Assembly: GCF_002211365.1 (NCBI RefSeq)
Contig: NZ_LOKZ01000014.1
Span: forward strand, 1 to 64,000
Direction: 5' to 3'
Length of the DNA: 64,000 bases
Source of the DNA: Rhizobium sp. R711
Lineage (GTDB): Bacteria; Pseudomonadota; Alphaproteobacteria; Rhizobiales; Rhizobiaceae
Part shown: positions 3,155 to 9,855 of the stretch, piece after piece
Numbering within the stretch: position 1 is the first letter of the stretch
Layout of the letters: each line of letters opens with the position of its first letter
Made by a program: the position numbers and the translations under genes
The notes under the pieces: model-generated
Databases searched by the model: none
The model's input: only the letters and a program-made list of their open reading frames with translations
Told to the model about the DNA's origin: nothing

Positions 3155-3852
3155 CCATTTAGCACGCGGAGGCCGCTCGTGCCCCAGCTAATCGGTTGCT
3201 GGCGCTTTTGAGAGGAACGAGTTCTATTGTCGGCTGCACGGCGGTCCGTGTCCGTCTTAGAGAATGGAAACAGACGGAAAGGACATCACTTTTAGGTCCT
3301 AATAACGAGGATGCTGGAGGCGTCCAAGCGCCGCTACGAGGGAAGTACGCTCGACCGTCCGATCGTCATGGTCGGTGCCGAAGTCTATGGCGATTGTCTG
3401 GCCCGGCTTGGTGCGACCAAACAGCCCGCCGCGGGCCTCAGACGCACCATGTCGACCAAGGGACCGTGGGATGAGGCCGGCCTAAAGCGTACCTGCTTTC
3501 CGGCAGCATGCCCGATCCGGCACCACGCGCGAGAGCGTCAGAGCTCGACGCTGGTGTTGGGATCAATGCCGCCGAGATACCTGGAATTCGTGGCGTTCCT
3601 GTGCATGCAAGGTCCAATCACGCTCGAGCCTTCTGCCGCCTCGGCACGGCGGCGGCCATTTCGAGCAACTCTCGTCCGGATCTCACAAGACGCTTGCAGA
3701 TCCAGAGCCGATACGTAATAACGTATCAGTTCACGGTTCAAAGGCGCCGGAGACGAATAACGACCCGAATTGATGGCGGTACGGCGATCCTTGGCTGCGC
3801 GCGCCTGTTTCTAAGACATGCCCCCTGATCGGCGCGCGAGAAAACCGTAGAA
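3155..3852. other. intergenic region without a recognisable gene
   Basis: About 700 bases between the cupin and the SPFH operon. Open frames exist (for example 3311-3718) but none has a recognisable motif or convincing ribosome site, and they may be remnants. The region holds an 18-base perfect palindrome near its right end (listed separately) and must contain the SPFH operon promoter. Confidence 0.45.
3710..3727. promoter_or_regulatory. palindromic operator candidate before the SPFH operon
   Basis: GATACGT and ACGTATC arms separated by AATA form an 18-base perfect dyad about 125 bases before the first SPFH gene. The size and symmetry suit a dimeric repressor of TetR, MarR or similar type. 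No regulator gene adjoins the operon, so the binding protein is unknown. Confidence 0.4.
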
Positions 3853-5865
3853 ATGCTAAAAACAATTCCCGACACGCCAATTCCCCACGTGAAGGATCAG
3901 CCAAATTTCCAGCTTGCCGCGGCTCAGGCACATGACCTTGCACGTCAGGGCGTGAGCATTGCCTTTCTTGCGGCATTGTTTCTGTTTGCCGCTCTGATTG
4001 CCAATGCGCTCAGTCTAAGCACTATTTGGGTGACTTTCTTTTGCAACAACGCCGCGGCCCTGATTTTGTTTGGTGCCGGCATCCGGTCTGCCTACGACAT
4101 TGCAGAATGGCGTCGAAAGACCGCCGGCATCGCCAGGCTGCCGCTCGGCGGCTTCGCGCAATGGTTAATCGCTTTCGTTACAGCTCCCTGGACGTCGCAG
4201 GAGGCAACGGAGCCGGATCGGATCGAACGTTGGTCCGGGAGCGTCCTGCGCGCGGCAGGATCGCTCCTGTCGCACATCGGCGCCCGCCCGCTCCTGGACG
4301 CCTCTTTCAGCCTGCTTGCATGTTTGATGGTTTATACCAACTGGGCTTTGACGGCCGATGACGTGACGATTGGGGCATTCGCCATCTTCATCATCTCCAT
4401 CTGTCTGGCTTTCGCATTCCTTTTCCTGGTGACGGAGAGACGGTTTGCTGCGATCGAGGCCGCAGAATGGCCCGAGGCGAAAGCGATTTCGCACATGGCG
4501 CGAGTGCCCATCGTCACGCTCGTTGTTTCCTGTTTTTGCCTTTTCCTGGCTGCGCGCGGATCGGCGCTGTCCACCAAGTTCATGGCGGCTGCCGGCGGCT
4601 TTGTTGTTCTTGTCGCATTGGAACTCCTCCTGCGGGCGACTGTTTCGATATTTCGTCCCCAAGGTGAGGCGCGCGAGCCAGCACTGATCGTCGACAGCCT
4701 TCTTGCCGGTTGTCTTCAATGGCCACCTCAACCTCGGGTCGACATCCAATCGGAGCTCCGCACCAAAACAGGTATTGACCTTCGGCAAGTCTGGGCTTTT
4801 TCGTTCATCCGAAAAACAGCGCCAGCCATCGTCCTTGCGACCGCGCTCATTGGTTGGGTTCTAAGCGGCATCCGCGAAATTCCGATGACTGGCCGCGGCG
4901 TTTACGAGCGCTTCGGCAGGGCCGAGCGTATCCTTGAGCCAGGCCTTCACATCGGTTTTCCATGGCCTTTCGGTCGCATCGTTCCAGTTGAAAATGGCAC
5001 TGTCCATGAACTGGCGACGTCCGTCAGTACAAACCCCAGCCAAGAACCGCGCACCGATGCCGAGGGCCCAGCGCCCGATAGTTCCAATCGATTGTGGGAC
5101 AGCTCACATGTCAGCGAGAAATCTCAGATCATCGCCAGCGATAGCGGTAGCAGGCAGAGCTTTGAGATCGTCGACATGGACGTGCGATTTGTCTACAGAA
5201 TCGGCCTTTCGGACGAGGCGGCGATGAAGGCCGCCTATCGCATCGGCGATTTACCTGCATTGATAGAGAGCGCCGCCAACCACATTCTTGTGCATGAATT
5301 TGCCGGACGCACCCTCAACGATGTTCTGAGCAAGGGACGGCTGTCTCTGGCACACGATATCGGCTCTGCCCTTCAAAAGGACATGGACAGCCTGGACAGC
5401 GGCGTCGAAATCCTCGCGGTCGTCGTCGAAGCAATTCATCCACCAGCCGGCGCCTCGAACGCCTTTCACGAAGTCCAGGCAGCGCAAATACGGGCGGAGG
5501 CACTGGTTGCACACGAACGGGGAACGGCCGCGGAGCGAAAGAATACAGCCCAACTCAATGCCAGCCTCGCCGAGGACAACGCAACAGTGGCAGCCAGACA
5601 AAACATTGCGGCATCGGATGTCGCCAGACTGCGTTTTCAGGCAGAGCAATCGGCCTATCGCGACGCGGGTAAAGCGTTCTTGACGGAGATGTATTTCGAT
5701 CAACTGACGAGCGGGCTCTCCCGTTCGAAGGCCCTCGTCCTCGATCACCGGATCGGCGGAAATACCGCTCCGACCCTCGACCTCAGGCGCCTGATGCTAC
5801 CCAGCGATCCTGATACGAGCACGCAGCCAAGTCCTTTGCCCCAACGGGAAGAAACCAGCCCATGA
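3853..5865 (+). CDS. SPFH (HflK-like) protein with polytopic N-terminal membrane domain
   Basis: 670 residues, much longer than HflK (about 400). Residues 30-340 carry about seven hydrophobic segments, for example VSIAFLAALFLFAALIANAL near 34 and APAIVLATALIGWVLSGI near 320. The SPFH/Band 7 start follows at once: MTGRGVYERFGRAERILEPGLH then FPWPFGRIVPVE. The middle has VDMDVRFVYRIG, the usual SPFH beta strand. A helical, Ala/Gln/Glu-rich stretch (about 545-620) resembles the coiled-coil stalk of HflK. HflK and HflC assemble into large cage-like membrane scaffolds and modulate the FtsH protease. The added membrane domain is unusual. It is first in a four-gene operon, and its TGA overlaps the next ATG. 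Confidence 0.8.
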   Translation: MLKTIPDTPIPHVKDQPNFQLAAAQAHDLARQGVSIAFLAALFLFAALIANALSLSTIWVTFFCNNAAALILFGAGIRSAYDIAEWRRKTAGIARLPLGGFAQWLIAFVTAPWTSQEATEPDRIERWSGSVLRAAGSLLSHIGARPLLDASFSLLACLMVYTNWALTADDVTIGAFAIFIISICLAFAFLFLVTERRFAAIEAAEWPEAKAISHMARVPIVTLVVSCFCLFLAARGSALSTKFMAAAGGFVVLVALELLLRATVSIFRPQGEAREPALIVDSLLAGCLQWPPQPRVDIQSELRTKTGIDLRQVWAFSFIRKTAPAIVLATALIGWVLSGIREIPMTGRGVYERFGRAERILEPGLHIGFPWPFGRIVPVENGTVHELATSVSTNPSQEPRTDAEGPAPDSSNRLWDSSHVSEKSQIIASDSGSRQSFEIVDMDVRFVYRIGLSDEAAMKAAYRIGDLPALIESAANHILVHEFAGRTLNDVLSKGRLSLAHDIGSALQKDMDSLDSGVEILAVVVEAIHPPAGASNAFHEVQAAQIRAEALVAHERGTAAERKNTAQLNASLAEDNATVAARQNIAASDVARLRFQAEQSAYRDAGKAFLTEMYFDQLTSGLSRSKALVLDHRIGGNTAPTLDLRRLMLPSDPDTSTQPSPLPQREETSP

Positions 5866-6869
5866 CCGGTTCACACGCACACCCGGGATCCGACCATGAC
5901 GGTCATGATCATCCCTCCCATGACGACATTCGCAACGAGACGATTTCATTTCGATGGTATCGCGTAATGATTGCGGTCGTGATCGTGTTGATCATTCTGA
6001 TCGCCGCATGCCTCGTGCAGGTGAGGTCTGGAGAAGCAACTATTGTCACAAGATTCGGCAATCCGAGCCGCGTCCTCGTCGATCCAGGCCTCGCCTTGCG
6101 GCTTCCGGTTCCATTCGAGACGACCATCAATGTCGATCTACGAGCCAAATCGACATCGAGCGGTCTACAAGATGTAGGCACAAAGGACGGCTTGCGAATT
6201 ATCGCACAGGCCTACGCAATCTGGCAGGTGCCCTCAGACCCGGATGCGATCAAGCGCTTCGTTCGCTCCGTGCAGAACGAGCCAGATCAGGCCGCCGAGC
6301 AAATCCGTACGTTTCTTGGATCATCGCTGGAAACGGCTGCAAGTGGATTTGATTTGGCATCGCTTATCAACGCCGATCCGGCAAAGCTCAGGATCGACGC
6401 CTTGGAAAATCAGGTCAAAGACCAAATTGCGCAGCAACTGCTCGACACCTATGGTCTGCAGGTGGTTGGTGTCGGTATCGAACGCTTGACGCTACCCTCC
6501 GTGACGCTAGACGCAACCGTCGACCGCATGCGGGCCGAGCGGGAGACCATAGCGACCGAGCGGGCGGCTGTTGGTAAACGCCAGGCCGCGGAGATCCGTT
6601 CGGCAGCCGAACGCGACGCAAGGGTCCTGGAGGCGGATGCGACGGTGAAGGCGGCAGACAGGCAAGCCCGGTCCCGCGTCGAAGCGGCACAAATTTACGG
6701 AGCAGCCTATAAGAGTGCACCGGAGCTCTATGAGCTTCTCCGCTCTCTCGACACCCTCGGCACGATCGTCAATTCCAATACACGCCTTGTGTTGCGAACC
6801 GATGCCGCACCCTTCCGCGCATTGGTCGACGGACCGCCGAGCACACTGCCGGCAAGCGGGGCGCATTAG
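5862..6869 (+). CDS. SPFH (HflC-like) membrane protein with His-rich N-terminus
   Basis: 335 residues, close to HflC size. The start overlaps the previous stop (ATGA), so translation is probably coupled. The N-terminus is rich in His and Asp (HAHPGSDHDGHDHPSHDD), a likely metal-binding tail on the cytosolic side. One transmembrane segment follows (about 35-55, VMIAVVIVLIILIAACLVQV). Then comes the SPFH domain (VRSGEATIVTRFGNPSRVL...PGLALRLPVPFE). A long helical region follows (MRAERETIATERAAVGKRQ to about 285), as in HflC. The His-rich tail echoes the one on the P-type ATPase three genes on, linking the scaffold to metal handling. Confidence 0.82.
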   Translation: MTGSHAHPGSDHDGHDHPSHDDIRNETISFRWYRVMIAVVIVLIILIAACLVQVRSGEATIVTRFGNPSRVLVDPGLALRLPVPFETTINVDLRAKSTSSGLQDVGTKDGLRIIAQAYAIWQVPSDPDAIKRFVRSVQNEPDQAAEQIRTFLGSSLETAASGFDLASLINADPAKLRIDALENQVKDQIAQQLLDTYGLQVVGVGIERLTLPSVTLDATVDRMRAERETIATERAAVGKRQAAEIRSAAERDARVLEADATVKAADRQARSRVEAAQIYGAAYKSAPELYELLRSLDTLGTIVNSNTRLVLRTDAAPFRALVDGPPSTLPASGAH

Positions 6870-6871
6870 AG

Positions 6872-7915
6872 ATGCCGACGGGAATGAGCAGGAATTCCGG
6901 GGCACAGCATCAGGCCGTTCATCTGGTGTCTTTGGCGCTGTCTGCAATCATGGTGCTTTCGGCAATCGCCTGGGCGACATCCAATATCCGCGAGGTCGCG
7001 CCGCATAATCGCGCCGTTGTCATTCGCACAGGTAGCCTGAACCGCATGGAAGATTCAGGTCTGCTATGGGCCTGGCCTGCGCCATTCGAGGAGGTTTTGC
7101 TAGTGCCCGCGGCAGCGACCGTTCTGGAGCGCAGGATCGACGGATTGCATCGTTGGCAAACTGGCGAGCCGCGAGCCGCGGATGCTTCAACCGAAAGTGA
7201 TGCCCTGGCCGGATCAGGCTATCTGCTCACCGCCGATGCGAGTGTGGTACACCTCGATATCGATGTCTTTTACAGAGTGACCGATCCGTTCGCTTACGTC
7301 TTACAGCAGCAGCATATCCTTCCGACACTGGACCGCCTGGCCACCCGCAGCGCCATCATGATCTCAGCGTCCAGAGACCTGGACAGCATTCTGGTCGCGC
7401 GCCCGGAACTGGTCGCTCCCGAAAGCGGTGCTGCCGAACGGCGTGAGCGCCTACGTGCCGATCTGGTCAAAAGCATCAATGCCAGTCTGAGAGGGCTTGC
7501 TTCAAAGGGCGTTAGCCTTGGCATTACAGTCGACCGCGCCGATATACAATCCGCGCTTCCGACTGCGGCTGTCAGTGCCTTCGATGCGGTCTTAACGGCA
7601 AGCCAGCAGGCAGAACAGGAGATTGCTGGCGCGCAGAACGACGCCGAACAGGACAAGCAGGCCGCCGATCAGGCCGCCGACCGGATCGTGCAGGTGGCGG
7701 ACGCCCAATCCCGCGAGCGGCTGGCGAAGGCTCGGGCCGACACGGCCACGATCACCGGCCTTGCGAGTGCGCAAAAGGGATCGGACAGTGATCCGGGTCT
7801 TCCGCTGCGTTTGTACAGAGATCGTATCGCAAGGATCCTGTCGCAGGCAGGTTCGGTCATCACGATCGATCCCAGGGACGATGCACGCCTGATGCTGCAA
7901 GGAGCGGACAAGTGA
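6872..7915 (+). CDS. third SPFH (HflK/HflC-like) membrane protein
   Basis: 347 residues, starting two bases after the previous stop. One transmembrane segment (about 17-38, LVSLALSAIMVLSAIAWATS) is followed by SPFH signature residues (IREVAPHNRAVVIRTGSLN; GLLWAWPAPFEEVLLVP). Next come VVHLDIDVFYRVTDPFAYVL and an Ala/Gln/Asp-rich coiled-coil stretch (about 235-290). The order membrane anchor, SPFH, helical stalk fits an HflK/C relative. Its stop overlaps the ATPase start (ATG at 7912 is really GTG-AGC context within GTGA), so all four genes appear to be one transcript. The function of a three-SPFH set is not known to me. Confidence 0.8.
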   Translation: MPTGMSRNSGAQHQAVHLVSLALSAIMVLSAIAWATSNIREVAPHNRAVVIRTGSLNRMEDSGLLWAWPAPFEEVLLVPAAATVLERRIDGLHRWQTGEPRAADASTESDALAGSGYLLTADASVVHLDIDVFYRVTDPFAYVLQQQHILPTLDRLATRSAIMISASRDLDSILVARPELVAPESGAAERRERLRADLVKSINASLRGLASKGVSLGITVDRADIQSALPTAAVSAFDAVLTASQQAEQEIAGAQNDAEQDKQAADQAADRIVQVADAQSRERLAKARADTATITGLASAQKGSDSDPGLPLRLYRDRIARILSQAGSVITIDPRDDARLMLQGADK

Positions 7916-9855
7916 GCATATCGACGCCCCACTTTCACGGCTCTCACGGCCATTCGCATCATCATGGCGACCTATTGAGGACCGGCCTGCTTACGGCCGC
8001 GGAAAAGCAAGCAGCCGCGGTCCAACTGACCTTTGCAATGGTCGCCTTGAGCCTGCTTGCTCTCGGGGTCGGCTGGCGATGGTTTGTTCCCCACGAGGAC
8101 GGAGTGAGCGAGCTTTTGCTCGCGGCAGCGTCGTTGATCGTCGCCGTTCCGGTCGTACGATCCGGCTGGCACAGTCTGCGCCATCCAAGCCTGCACGGCG
8201 TCACCGATCAGCTGATCGCTCTTGCGATGCTGGCTGCTTGGGCGACAGGAGACCTGCTGACCGCCGCCCTTCTTCCGATCATCATGATATTCGGACATGT
8301 GCTTGAGGAGCGGAGCGTCATCGGATCGAAAGAGGCGATGGACGCCTTGGCCCGTTTGACCCGTAGCCGCGCCCGATTGCTTACTGCGAGCGGTGAGACG
8401 CGCGAGGTCGAAAACCTCCTGCTCAATCCTGGCGATGTGGTGGAGGTCAGGGCCGGAGATCGCATCCCCGCCGACGGCCGCGTGATCCAAGGACAAGCGA
8501 GCCTGGACACCGCGCCGATCACCGGAGAATCGTTACCACGTGAGGCTTCAATCGGCGTGGACGTCTTCGGCGGCGCAATCAATCTGGATGGTCTTCTTCA
8601 CGTCGAGGTCACAAGGACTGGCGAGGATTCCACGCTTGGAAGGGTCATTGCCTTGATGCAGCGCGCGGAAAACTCAAAGCCGCCGATCACCCGGCTGCTC
8701 GAGCGTTATGCCCAGCAATATCTCGGGTTCGTGCTGACCGTCGCGGCCATTGCCTGGCTCCTGACCAACAATGACCAGATCATGCTTGCGATCCTGGTCG
8801 CAGCCTGTCCCTGCGCGTTGGTCTTGTCGGCACCGGCAACGGCGATTGCGGGCATAGCTGTCGCTGCGCGCCACGGCATTCTCATCCGCAGCTCGGCTTT
8901 TCTGGAAGAGCTCGCTGATCTGACGTCCGTCGTCATAGACAAGACCGGGACCCTGACCTACGGGAGGCTTCGCCTGCATGAGATCAGGCCAACACGGGAT
9001 CTCGATCAGGAGACCGTCCTGGCGTTGGCAGCATCTTTGGGAGCGGCCAGCAGCCACCCGGTCAGCAGAGCCCTTGCGTCGCTCACGGCGCATGAGCGCT
9101 TTTATTCCCTGATGAACGTCAGGGAGCTACAAGGGCTCGGCGTTGTCGCGGTCACGGAGCACGGAGAAGCCGCCCTCGGTCGCCCGGAGCTGTTTGCACG
9201 CCTGGGCGTGCCTTTGCCCCCTGTTCCGAGGCACGATGGTCCAATTGCGGGCTTGTCCGTCGCTCAACAGTTTGTCGCCTGGCTTCTCTTGACGGACACG
9301 ACCAAACCGGAGGCTAAAGCGGCGCTGTCGGAATTGCGGGACCTCGGTCTCAACCGGCAGCTTCTGCTCACCGGTGACCGTCAATCGGTCGCTGACGCCC
9401 TGGCACGCGAAATAGGAATAGCTGAGGTTGCCGCCCAGATGCTACCGGCCGACAAGCTGCAGCGCGTGATGAACGAGACCAAAAGCGGTTTCAGGCCGCT
9501 TGTCGTCGGAGACGGGATCAACGATTCCCTGGCACTCAAGGCTGGTGCCGTCGGCATCGCGATGGGCGCAGGTGGAGCTGATATTGCACTTGCATCCTCG
9601 GACATCATCTTGATTGGCAGCGATTTGCGGCGGCTCGGGACATGCATTCGTCTCAGCAGGCTATGTCGTCGCACCTTGAAAACCAATGTCATAATCGGTC
9701 TCGGCTGGACGGTCGCGATCGTCTCCCTGGCTGGATTTGGCGTTTTCGGGGCCGCCGGCGCCGTCATCGCAGCGCTTCTACACAATGTCAGTACATTGTT
9801 GGTGCTTGCAAATGCCGGTCGATTAATGAGATTTGACGAACCACTCGTGGCTTAG
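7912..9855 (+). CDS. heavy-metal P1B-type ATPase
   Basis: 647 residues with all P-type ATPase landmarks: TGES (actuator), AACPCALVLSAP (membrane CPC metal site), DKTGTLT (phosphorylated Asp), ASSHPVSRAL (the HP locus of P1B pumps) and VVGDGINDSLALKAG (hinge). There is no HMA domain. Instead the N-terminus has a His-rich tail (HFHGSHGHSHHHGD). The last helices read AALLHNVSTLLVLANAGRL. This differs from the Cu-type (N, Y, M, S) pattern and carries LLHN where Co/Mn-type pumps usually have an HE pair, so the transported metal is uncertain; Zn, Cd or Co are plausible. It is the last gene of the SPFH operon, and the starts and stops overlap, suggesting a pump held in an SPFH scaffold. Confidence 0.9.
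   Translation: MSISTPHFHGSHGHSHHHGDLLRTGLLTAAEKQAAAVQLTFAMVALSLLALGVGWRWFVPHEDGVSELLLAAASLIVAVPVVRSGWHSLRHPSLHGVTDQLIALAMLAAWATGDLLTAALLPIIMIFGHVLEERSVIGSKEAMDALARLTRSRARLLTASGETREVENLLLNPGDVVEVRAGDRIPADGRVIQGQASLDTAPITGESLPREASIGVDVFGGAINLDGLLHVEVTRTGEDSTLGRVIALMQRAENSKPPITRLLERYAQQYLGFVLTVAAIAWLLTNNDQIMLAILVAACPCALVLSAPATAIAGIAVAARHGILIRSSAFLEELADLTSVVIDKTGTLTYGRLRLHEIRPTRDLDQETVLALAASLGAASSHPVSRALASLTAHERFYSLMNVRELQGLGVVAVTEHGEAALGRPELFARLGVPLPPVPRHDGPIAGLSVAQQFVAWLLLTDTTKPEAKAALSELRDLGLNRQLLLTGDRQSVADALAREIGIAEVAAQMLPADKLQRVMNETKSGFRPLVVGDGINDSLALKAGAVGIAMGAGGADIALASSDIILIGSDLRRLGTCIRLSRLCRRTLKTNVIIGLGWTVAIVSLAGFGVFGAAGAVIAALLHNVSTLLVLANAGRLMRFDEPLVA

Follow-up and report, generated by a model that had tools for sequence, protein, structure and literature searches.

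A four-gene operon of three SPFH proteins and an HmtA-type P1B ATPase in Rhizobium: a candidate Zur-controlled zinc-import module

The four genes and their linkage

The first 64,000 nucleotides of contig NZ_LOKZ01000014.1 of Rhizobium sp. R711 (assembly GCF_002211365.1), named here the window, contain four closely spaced genes encoding three proteins of the SPFH family and a P1B-type ATPase. Judged by sequence comparison, this operon is the counterpart of the Pseudomonas aeruginosa hmtA cluster (PA2439–PA2435). We consider it somewhat more probable than its opposite that the operon is a horizontally mobile, Zur-controlled zinc-import module, in which the three HflK/HflC-like proteins scaffold the HmtA pump. 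The initial annotation of this DNA, made from the letters alone, had noted no characterised system of this make-up; this does not hold, as the ATPase is of the HmtA type and the matching P. aeruginosa cluster has been described as regulated by zinc starvation and Zur. The genes and features of the locus are as follows:

3710-3727 and 3714-3728, no strand: candidate Zur operator, consisting of an 18-bp palindrome (GATACGTAATAACGTATC) and an overlapping Zur-like 7-1-7 site (CGTAATAACGTATCA), from a Zur position weight matrix (PWM) and conservation
3853-5865, plus strand: gene 1, 670 amino acids; N-domain with six transmembrane helices (residues ~20-270) fused to an HflK-like anchor and SPFH domain (342-558)
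5862-6869, plus strand: gene 2, 335 amino acids; HflC-like SPFH protein with a His/Asp-rich N-terminus (residues 1-22), followed by a transmembrane helix (35-53)
5862-5927, plus strand: His/Asp-rich N-terminal segment of gene 2, predicted cytoplasmic, ahead of the transmembrane helix
6872-7915, plus strand: gene 3, 347 amino acids; third SPFH protein, HflK-like
7912-9855, plus strand: gene 4, 647 amino acids, GTG start; HmtA-type P1B ATPase with a His-rich N-terminus of variable conservation

The open reading frames (ORFs) at these coordinates, all on the plus strand, confirm the tight packing that had been described: genes 1/2 and genes 3/4 overlap by four bases each, and two bases separate gene 2 from gene 3. 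The composition also stands, since Pfam finds Band_7/SPFH in genes 1–3 and E1-E2_ATPase with a HAD hydrolase in gene 4, which NCBIfam assigns to the heavy-metal P-type ATPases. The “seven-helix” domain of gene 1 needs a partial correction: membrane helices are indeed fused to an HflK-like protein, but the ~340 residues preceding the SPFH domain comprise six predicted membrane helices in a separate N-domain and then an HflK-type anchor at ~310-338. The His-rich “tails” of genes 2 and 4 had been taken for C-terminal, while both segments are N-terminal (MTGSHAHPGSDHDGHDHPSHDD and VSISTPHFHGSHGHSHHHGD, respectively).

A genome scan with gene 1 gave 427 relatives, 80 of which were kept (15 from Rhizobium or Rhizobiales and 65 from Pseudomonas); with the window and five plasmid loci (H1, H5, H8, H9, and H10, from 24 plasmid records found with gene 1), they make up 86 loci. 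The four genes keep identical order and strand in 85 of these loci, spread over alpha-, beta-, and gammaproteobacteria, a count inflated by relatedness, as 80 of the 86 are Rhizobiales or Pseudomonas loci retrieved with one query. The exception (L070) is a contig end, where gene 1 stands alone; the pump is truncated by a contig end in L086, L093, L097, and L099. Because it recurs in 85 of 86 loci, the four-gene order is far beyond chance.

The linkage was also followed from the pump, with a close relative defined by E ≤ 1e-150; in the phylum set, no more than three candidates were scored for each listed genome. Such relatives occur in 11 of 398 Pseudomonadota genomes (own included). Within the Pseudomonas genus g115, 13 of the 25 genomes have one, and two of these also belong to the phylum set. 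Gene 3 lies upstream on the same strand for all 22 pumps (own included), within 0.1 kb in 13 and at ~0.6 kb in 9; in L171 and L166, the ~0.6 kb gap is filled by a small ORF. Gene 2 falls inside the short flank of 10 of the 11 phylum matches, and all seven pump loci examined at greater length (L166–L171 and the window) contain all four genes. Among plasmids, the nine records with a pump at E ≤ 1e-140 are the nine best gene-1 records (H1–H9). The tenth, from Paraburkholderia (H10/L020), has a more distant pump, weaker than this cut-off; records H11–H24 match the SPFH half of gene 1 only, and no pump at E ≤ 1e-140 was found in them. Conserved linkage across genomes, by which the annotation proposed to check its idea, is thus borne out by the gene order, by the adjacency of gene 3 to every pump, and by the coincidence of pump and gene-1 records on plasmids, and a functional coupling of the SPFH proteins with the pump is well supported by genomic context.

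The junctions themselves are less uniform. Gene 2 was scored in 85 loci and the pump start in 82, since L090, L095, and L102 lack a start codon within the region searched. With the start codon nearest the preceding stop chosen, which favours overlaps, the gene 3–pump junction is −4 nt in 81 of 82 loci, and genes 1 and 2 overlap by four bases in just 49 of 85. The statement that overlap implies fixed stoichiometry therefore went too far; the overlaps suggest translational coupling only.

Additional neighbours were considered as parts of the module and rejected, because other flanking ORFs are shared only inside one clade or change position from locus to locus; therefore, the unit is these four genes. 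Eleven flanking ORF clusters are common to at least two groups (from the first 60 clusters and a recheck), varying in distance, side, and strand, and those recognised by eye are large families (LysR-like, solute-binding, IS66-like, and RND-like). One such ORF resembles, by eye, a COG0523-like GTPase, a family often tied to zinc starvation; it lies 4.6-5.6 kb downstream of the pump in the Pseudomonas loci L039, L043, L057, L059, L079, L096, and L098, and upstream of the module in L020, eight loci in total. It fits zinc, yet it is not a part of the module. L020 also carries znuABC-like genes. Correlated distances among the four proteins (r 0.93-0.98 over 80 loci, leaving out L070, L037, L086, L093, L097, and L099) are confounded by the species tree and were not used as evidence. 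L015 was left out of the gene-1 alignment due to a frame error.

The hmtA cluster of Pseudomonas aeruginosa and probable control by Zur

In P. aeruginosa PA14, three SPFH genes, PA14_33070/33080/33110, were placed in one predicted operon (PMC13086221). They equal PA2439/PA2438/PA2437 (PMC9431628), which lie near PA2435, that is HmtA (PMC4542158). Genes 1, 2, and 3 of the window are the counterparts of PA2439/PaFlo5, PA2438/PaFlo6, and PA2437/PaFlo7, respectively. In genome G464, presumed to be P. aeruginosa PA7 or a very close strain (its azurin is 98% identical to P. aeruginosa azurin), the window pump has a sole match at E ≤ 1e-150, with 70.7% identity over 621 amino acids. The corresponding locus (L171) contains the four genes in window order, and both gene 2 and the pump begin with a His-rich stretch there. 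Gene 3 and the pump are separated by a PA2436-like ORF, and the pump is followed by a DUF4946 ORF, the likeness to PA2436 and PA2434 being one of position. The PA2436-like ORF (L171:7481-7966) encodes 162 amino acids with an apparent signal peptide, recognised by eye; a Pfam search found no match for it. The two clusters are alike in gene order, domain make-up, and probably a Zur-linked promoter; however, no PA2436-like ORF separates gene 3 from the pump in the window, and the window's operator differs in sequence.

A link to zinc has been reported in P. aeruginosa. Loss of znuA was accompanied by 5.6-14.4-fold upregulation of PA2435 and PA2437–PA2439, for which the Zur site was weak (E 0.11) (PMC4542158), and the proteins of the cluster were reported to be more abundant under Zn depletion (PMC11761036). 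The PA2439 promoter was shifted by Zur with zinc in an electrophoretic mobility shift assay (PMC8531726). Among the upstream regions of the 65 Pseudomonas loci, 64 contain the Zur-like core GTTATA...TAAC, and the remaining one has a match with three mismatches.

In Rhizobium, 16 of 18 loci have the palindrome GATACGTAATAACGTATC upstream, 14 of them in exact form, at a distance of ~94 to 219 bp and within otherwise poorly aligned DNA. The palindrome is unique in its own genome at up to three mismatches; a second copy at the genome's znuA was sought and not found at this threshold, and a PWM from znuA promoters was used instead. With the “strict” PWM, built from five distinct boxes of the two-box arrangement in Rhizobium znuA promoters, the site 140 bp upstream of gene 1 ranks first among the window's 63,986 positions (score 13.8, the next 10.2). 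With the “all” PWM of 12 boxes, some of which come from the 3′ side of znuA owing to an imperfect orientation test, the site is still at the top of the window (12.9, the next 9.4), and the other Rhizobium loci with a site score 7.4-11.0. Zur control of the Rhizobium operon appears likely from these data. In the znuA/znuC intergenic region of the same genome (L108), znuA is preceded by two Zur-like boxes, CGTTATAGCATAACG and TGTAATAACATAACA, and a Fur-family gene, presumably zur, lies on the divergent side.

The distribution of the ZnuA transporter component was compared in the genus. Of 40 genomes, 38 have a clear ZnuA of the window genome's type, G003 has a fragment of it, and G037 has none. 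G057 lacks it too, and the other six operon carriers compared possess it. G037 and G057 are closely related operon carriers without the usual ZnuA, which may reflect one loss event, or another transporter may be present; this pattern gives a hint that the operon could replace ZnuA in them. In the text, as available, of a study of zinc starvation in B. cenocepacia, HflK, HflC, SPFH, and “P-type ATPase” are absent (PMC10563805).

Metal class of the pump and nature of the SPFH proteins

Gene 4 contains the motifs CPC, FGHVLEERS, and LHNVST, as well as DKTGT, and LHNxST is conserved across loci; a Pfam search detected no HMA domain. The protein passes the P1B heavy-metal ATPase model TIGR01525 (514.3 bits, cut-off 346.25) and the cadmium-family P1B model (481.5 vs 313.5), and fails the copper P1B model (360.3 vs 397) and the ZntA model NF033775 (294.6 vs 1240). 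The best-scoring solved chains are 7qbz (cadmium translocating) and 4umv (zinc-transporting), both of which we take to be exporter types. ZntA-type (P1B-2) exporters share with gene 4 the CPC motif and the P1B architecture, but differ from it in the HMA domain and in the last helices, where Lys and Asp of ZntA, presumably metal ligands, align with Trp and His/Asn.

The cadmium-family score and the exporter-type chains would suit a metal-resistance platform, in which Zn/Cd/Cu would be exported by a pump that the SPFH trio gathers into clusters, in the way PacL1 does with CtpC. A precedent for such a metal-binding scaffold sustaining a P-ATPase exists in mycobacteria, as PacL1 was reported to cluster with CtpC and to be needed to keep it (PMC9374683). 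PacL1–CtpC resembles the system considered here in that a scaffold in the membrane has a metal-binding motif and apparently shares an operon with a P1B ATPase; however, it serves efflux under poisoning, whereas import under starvation is likely here, and genes 1–3 match only Band_7 (Pfam, E ≤ 0.01), so that by this search, which included no direct comparison with a PacL sequence, they fall outside the PacL-type scaffolds. The Zur-type operator and the starvation induction of the P. aeruginosa cluster indicate need rather than excess of metal, and overexpression of HmtA was reported to make cells zinc- and copper-sensitive (PMC10393844). Metal efflux as the principal explanation is weakened by the operator and the published induction, and a resistance platform is therefore regarded as unlikely. 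A metal-sensitivity (efflux) assay, as implied initially, is probably the wrong first test, zinc starvation being the relevant condition.

The second debatable issue is the identity of the SPFH proteins. Against the HflK/HflC equivalog models TIGR01933, TIGR01932, and TIGR01933, genes 1–3 score 72.9, 109.1, and 94.0, all below the cut-offs of 159.4, 134.4, and 159.4, and a plain HflK/HflC duplication was ruled out on this basis. The trio resembles the HflK/HflC complex in belonging to the SPFH family, in the N-terminal anchor, and in having HflK-like and HflC-like subunits. It differs from that complex not only in these scores but also in three subunits instead of two, linkage to a P-type ATPase, the six-helix fusion on gene 1, and the His-rich N-terminus on gene 2. 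The likeness of all three proteins to HflK/HflC, which modulate FtsH (PMC13086221), allows a further explanation, namely that they are zinc-starvation paralogues retuning the zinc protease FtsH and that the pump is merely co-regulated. In a preprint, PA2438/PA2439 are connected with the Zn-metalloprotease HflB (FtsH) and not with the pump (PMC11761036). However, the proteins fall short of the equivalog thresholds, HflK/HflC-like genes exist elsewhere in the same genome (seven Band_7 matches, three of them within the operon), an SPFH gene adjoins 22 of 22 pumps, and a His-rich segment is carried by the HflC-like protein, all of which make FtsH modulation improbable.

The N-domain of gene 1 has no standout Pfam family. 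AlphaFold modelled the full-length protein poorly (mean predicted local distance difference test, pLDDT, 54), and a model of the N-domain (73.9) was used for searches. Foldseek gave no match to it under E 0.001 (rank 1 was YiiP, E 0.26). In VIA-align, the top 13 rows were all cation diffusion facilitators (CDF), the best being 8f6k (Z 15.7, root-mean-square deviation 3.6, 197 residues) and the first non-CDF row having Z 9.2, with the reservation that helical bundles can reach Z 14. Structure-related alignments comprised 48 of the 80 kept loci and the window. For these 49 N-domain members, PF01545 was not among the listed 25 of 31 weakly matching families (E ≤ 10), nor was it listed for the window's own N-domain, and hhalign of the N-domain with a CDF profile scored 14.9, in the range of the reversed controls (13.6 and 12.1). 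The N-domain may thus resemble CDF transporters (YiiP, ZnT) in its predicted fold but, unlike them, lacks a CDF sequence signal; that it is a CDF-derived scaffold domain is a lead from modelling.

The His-rich N-termini are distributed unequally. The HflC-like protein has at least six His in its first 40 residues in 84 of 85 loci, while the HflC-like protein of the contig C4 pair in the same genome, a canonical HflC, has no His-rich start. The pump has at least five His in its first 40 residues in 27 of 82 loci and none in 38; by group, a His-rich pump N-terminus is found in 18 of 18 Rhizobium vs 7 of 61 Pseudomonas loci. The most constant putative metal-binding element of the module is on an SPFH protein, not on the pump, and this N-terminus gives the strongest sequence argument that the SPFH part may handle metal. 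As it lies ahead of a single membrane helix, the segment is predicted to be cytoplasmic. A role in periplasmic zinc supply or sensing, with an outward pump loading extracytoplasmic proteins inside an SPFH compartment, would agree with the periplasmic orientation of HflK/C-type SPFH domains (PMC2636767) and with such ATPases usually being efflux pumps (PMC10393844), but it is very improbable, since zinc export in starvation is hard to square with Zur control and transmembrane prediction together with HflC topology places the conserved His segment in the cytoplasm.

Proposed zinc import by a scaffolded pump

In the favoured zinc-import module, it is proposed that when zinc is short, Zur would dissociate from the operator ahead of gene 1, and genes 1–4 would be expressed jointly. 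The HmtA-type P1B ATPase would then move zinc, and perhaps copper too, from the periplasm to the cytoplasm, while the three HflK/HflC-like SPFH proteins would assemble in the inner membrane into a hetero-oligomeric scaffold or cage, gathering or stabilising the pump. The His/Asp-rich N-terminus of gene 2 (in Rhizobium, together with that of the pump) may bind zinc at the cytoplasmic mouth and act as an acceptor, a buffer, or a brake. The physical complex, the cage, the role of the His segment, and the direction of transport in Rhizobium are what we infer. A stricter form of this proposal, in which the SPFH trio (one subunit being fused to a CDF-like membrane domain derived from a zinc transporter and one having the His-rich cytoplasmic tail) builds a compartment for zinc import, with HmtA pumps inside it that depend on it for inward transport, is doubtful.

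For P. aeruginosa, HmtA has been described as a Zn/Cu importer (PMC8456098). The evidence for import, as cited in reviews, is the overexpression phenotype; starvation induction and, with conflicting results, Zur binding have been published. A search of titles and abstracts found no paper on a role of SPFH proteins for HmtA, and the zinc papers, as far as their accessible text goes, list the genes side by side.

Together with the relatedness of the sampled loci and the limited number of candidates scored per genome, several observations weigh against the zinc-import module. Import is unusual for a P1B ATPase, and a review considers that the transport direction of HmtA needs confirmation (PMC10393844). 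According to the same review, Zur binds all uptake promoters except that of hmtA, which conflicts with the mobility shift data. In the study that reported this shift, hmtA mRNA was low and not repressed by zinc (PMC8531726), and in the proteomics table PA2439 and PA2435 fall short of p<0.05 (PMC11761036). The window's operator score of 13.8 and those of the other Rhizobium loci with a site (10.1-13.2) lie below the training boxes (16.7-23.0), all with the “strict” PWM. The palindrome is missing in L022, from a strain of R. tumorigenes, and in L036, which belongs to a divergent group and does have ZnuA. A simple Zur scan gave no site in L018 and L020 and only one with three mismatches in L019; the HflC-like protein of the latter, from Klebsiella, lacks the His-rich N-terminus, with 1 His. 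In rich medium, a PaFlo5-7 deletion had little effect on PA14 (PMC13086221).

The same deletion was reported to lower biofilm by ~20% and to attenuate virulence in larvae, and the terms Zur, EDTA, and chelat are absent from the text of that study as available (PMC13086221). For the apparently dispensable PaFlo5-7, the zinc-import module gives zinc starvation as a relevant condition. The function of SPFH cages is a standing question, and for many of the bacterial ones the client is broad or unclear. In this operon, genome linkage suggests one specific client, with an SPFH gene adjoining each of 22 pumps, and the operon might be a good system for the question of how SPFH proteins act on transporters. 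A further question that it touches is how a P1B ATPase, a type of pump that normally exports, could be used for import.

The occurrence of the module within the genus is patchy, full-length gene 1 being present in 9 of 60 genomes (own included), and the plasmid loci include Burkholderia ubonensis, Paraburkholderia sprentiae, and a conjugative plasmid of Klebsiella aerogenes. In R. lusitanum P1-7, gene 3 is broken into two frames (L037:8383-9581), while the other three genes are open. A genus member without the full gene contains a lone 57-residue remnant of the gene 1 C-terminus with 60% identity (L017; G018:C4:462744-462914), which is consistent with loss of the operon in that genome. Transposase-like fragments, recognised by eye, are present 5′ of the operon at 758-1310 of the window and are consistent with a mobile location.

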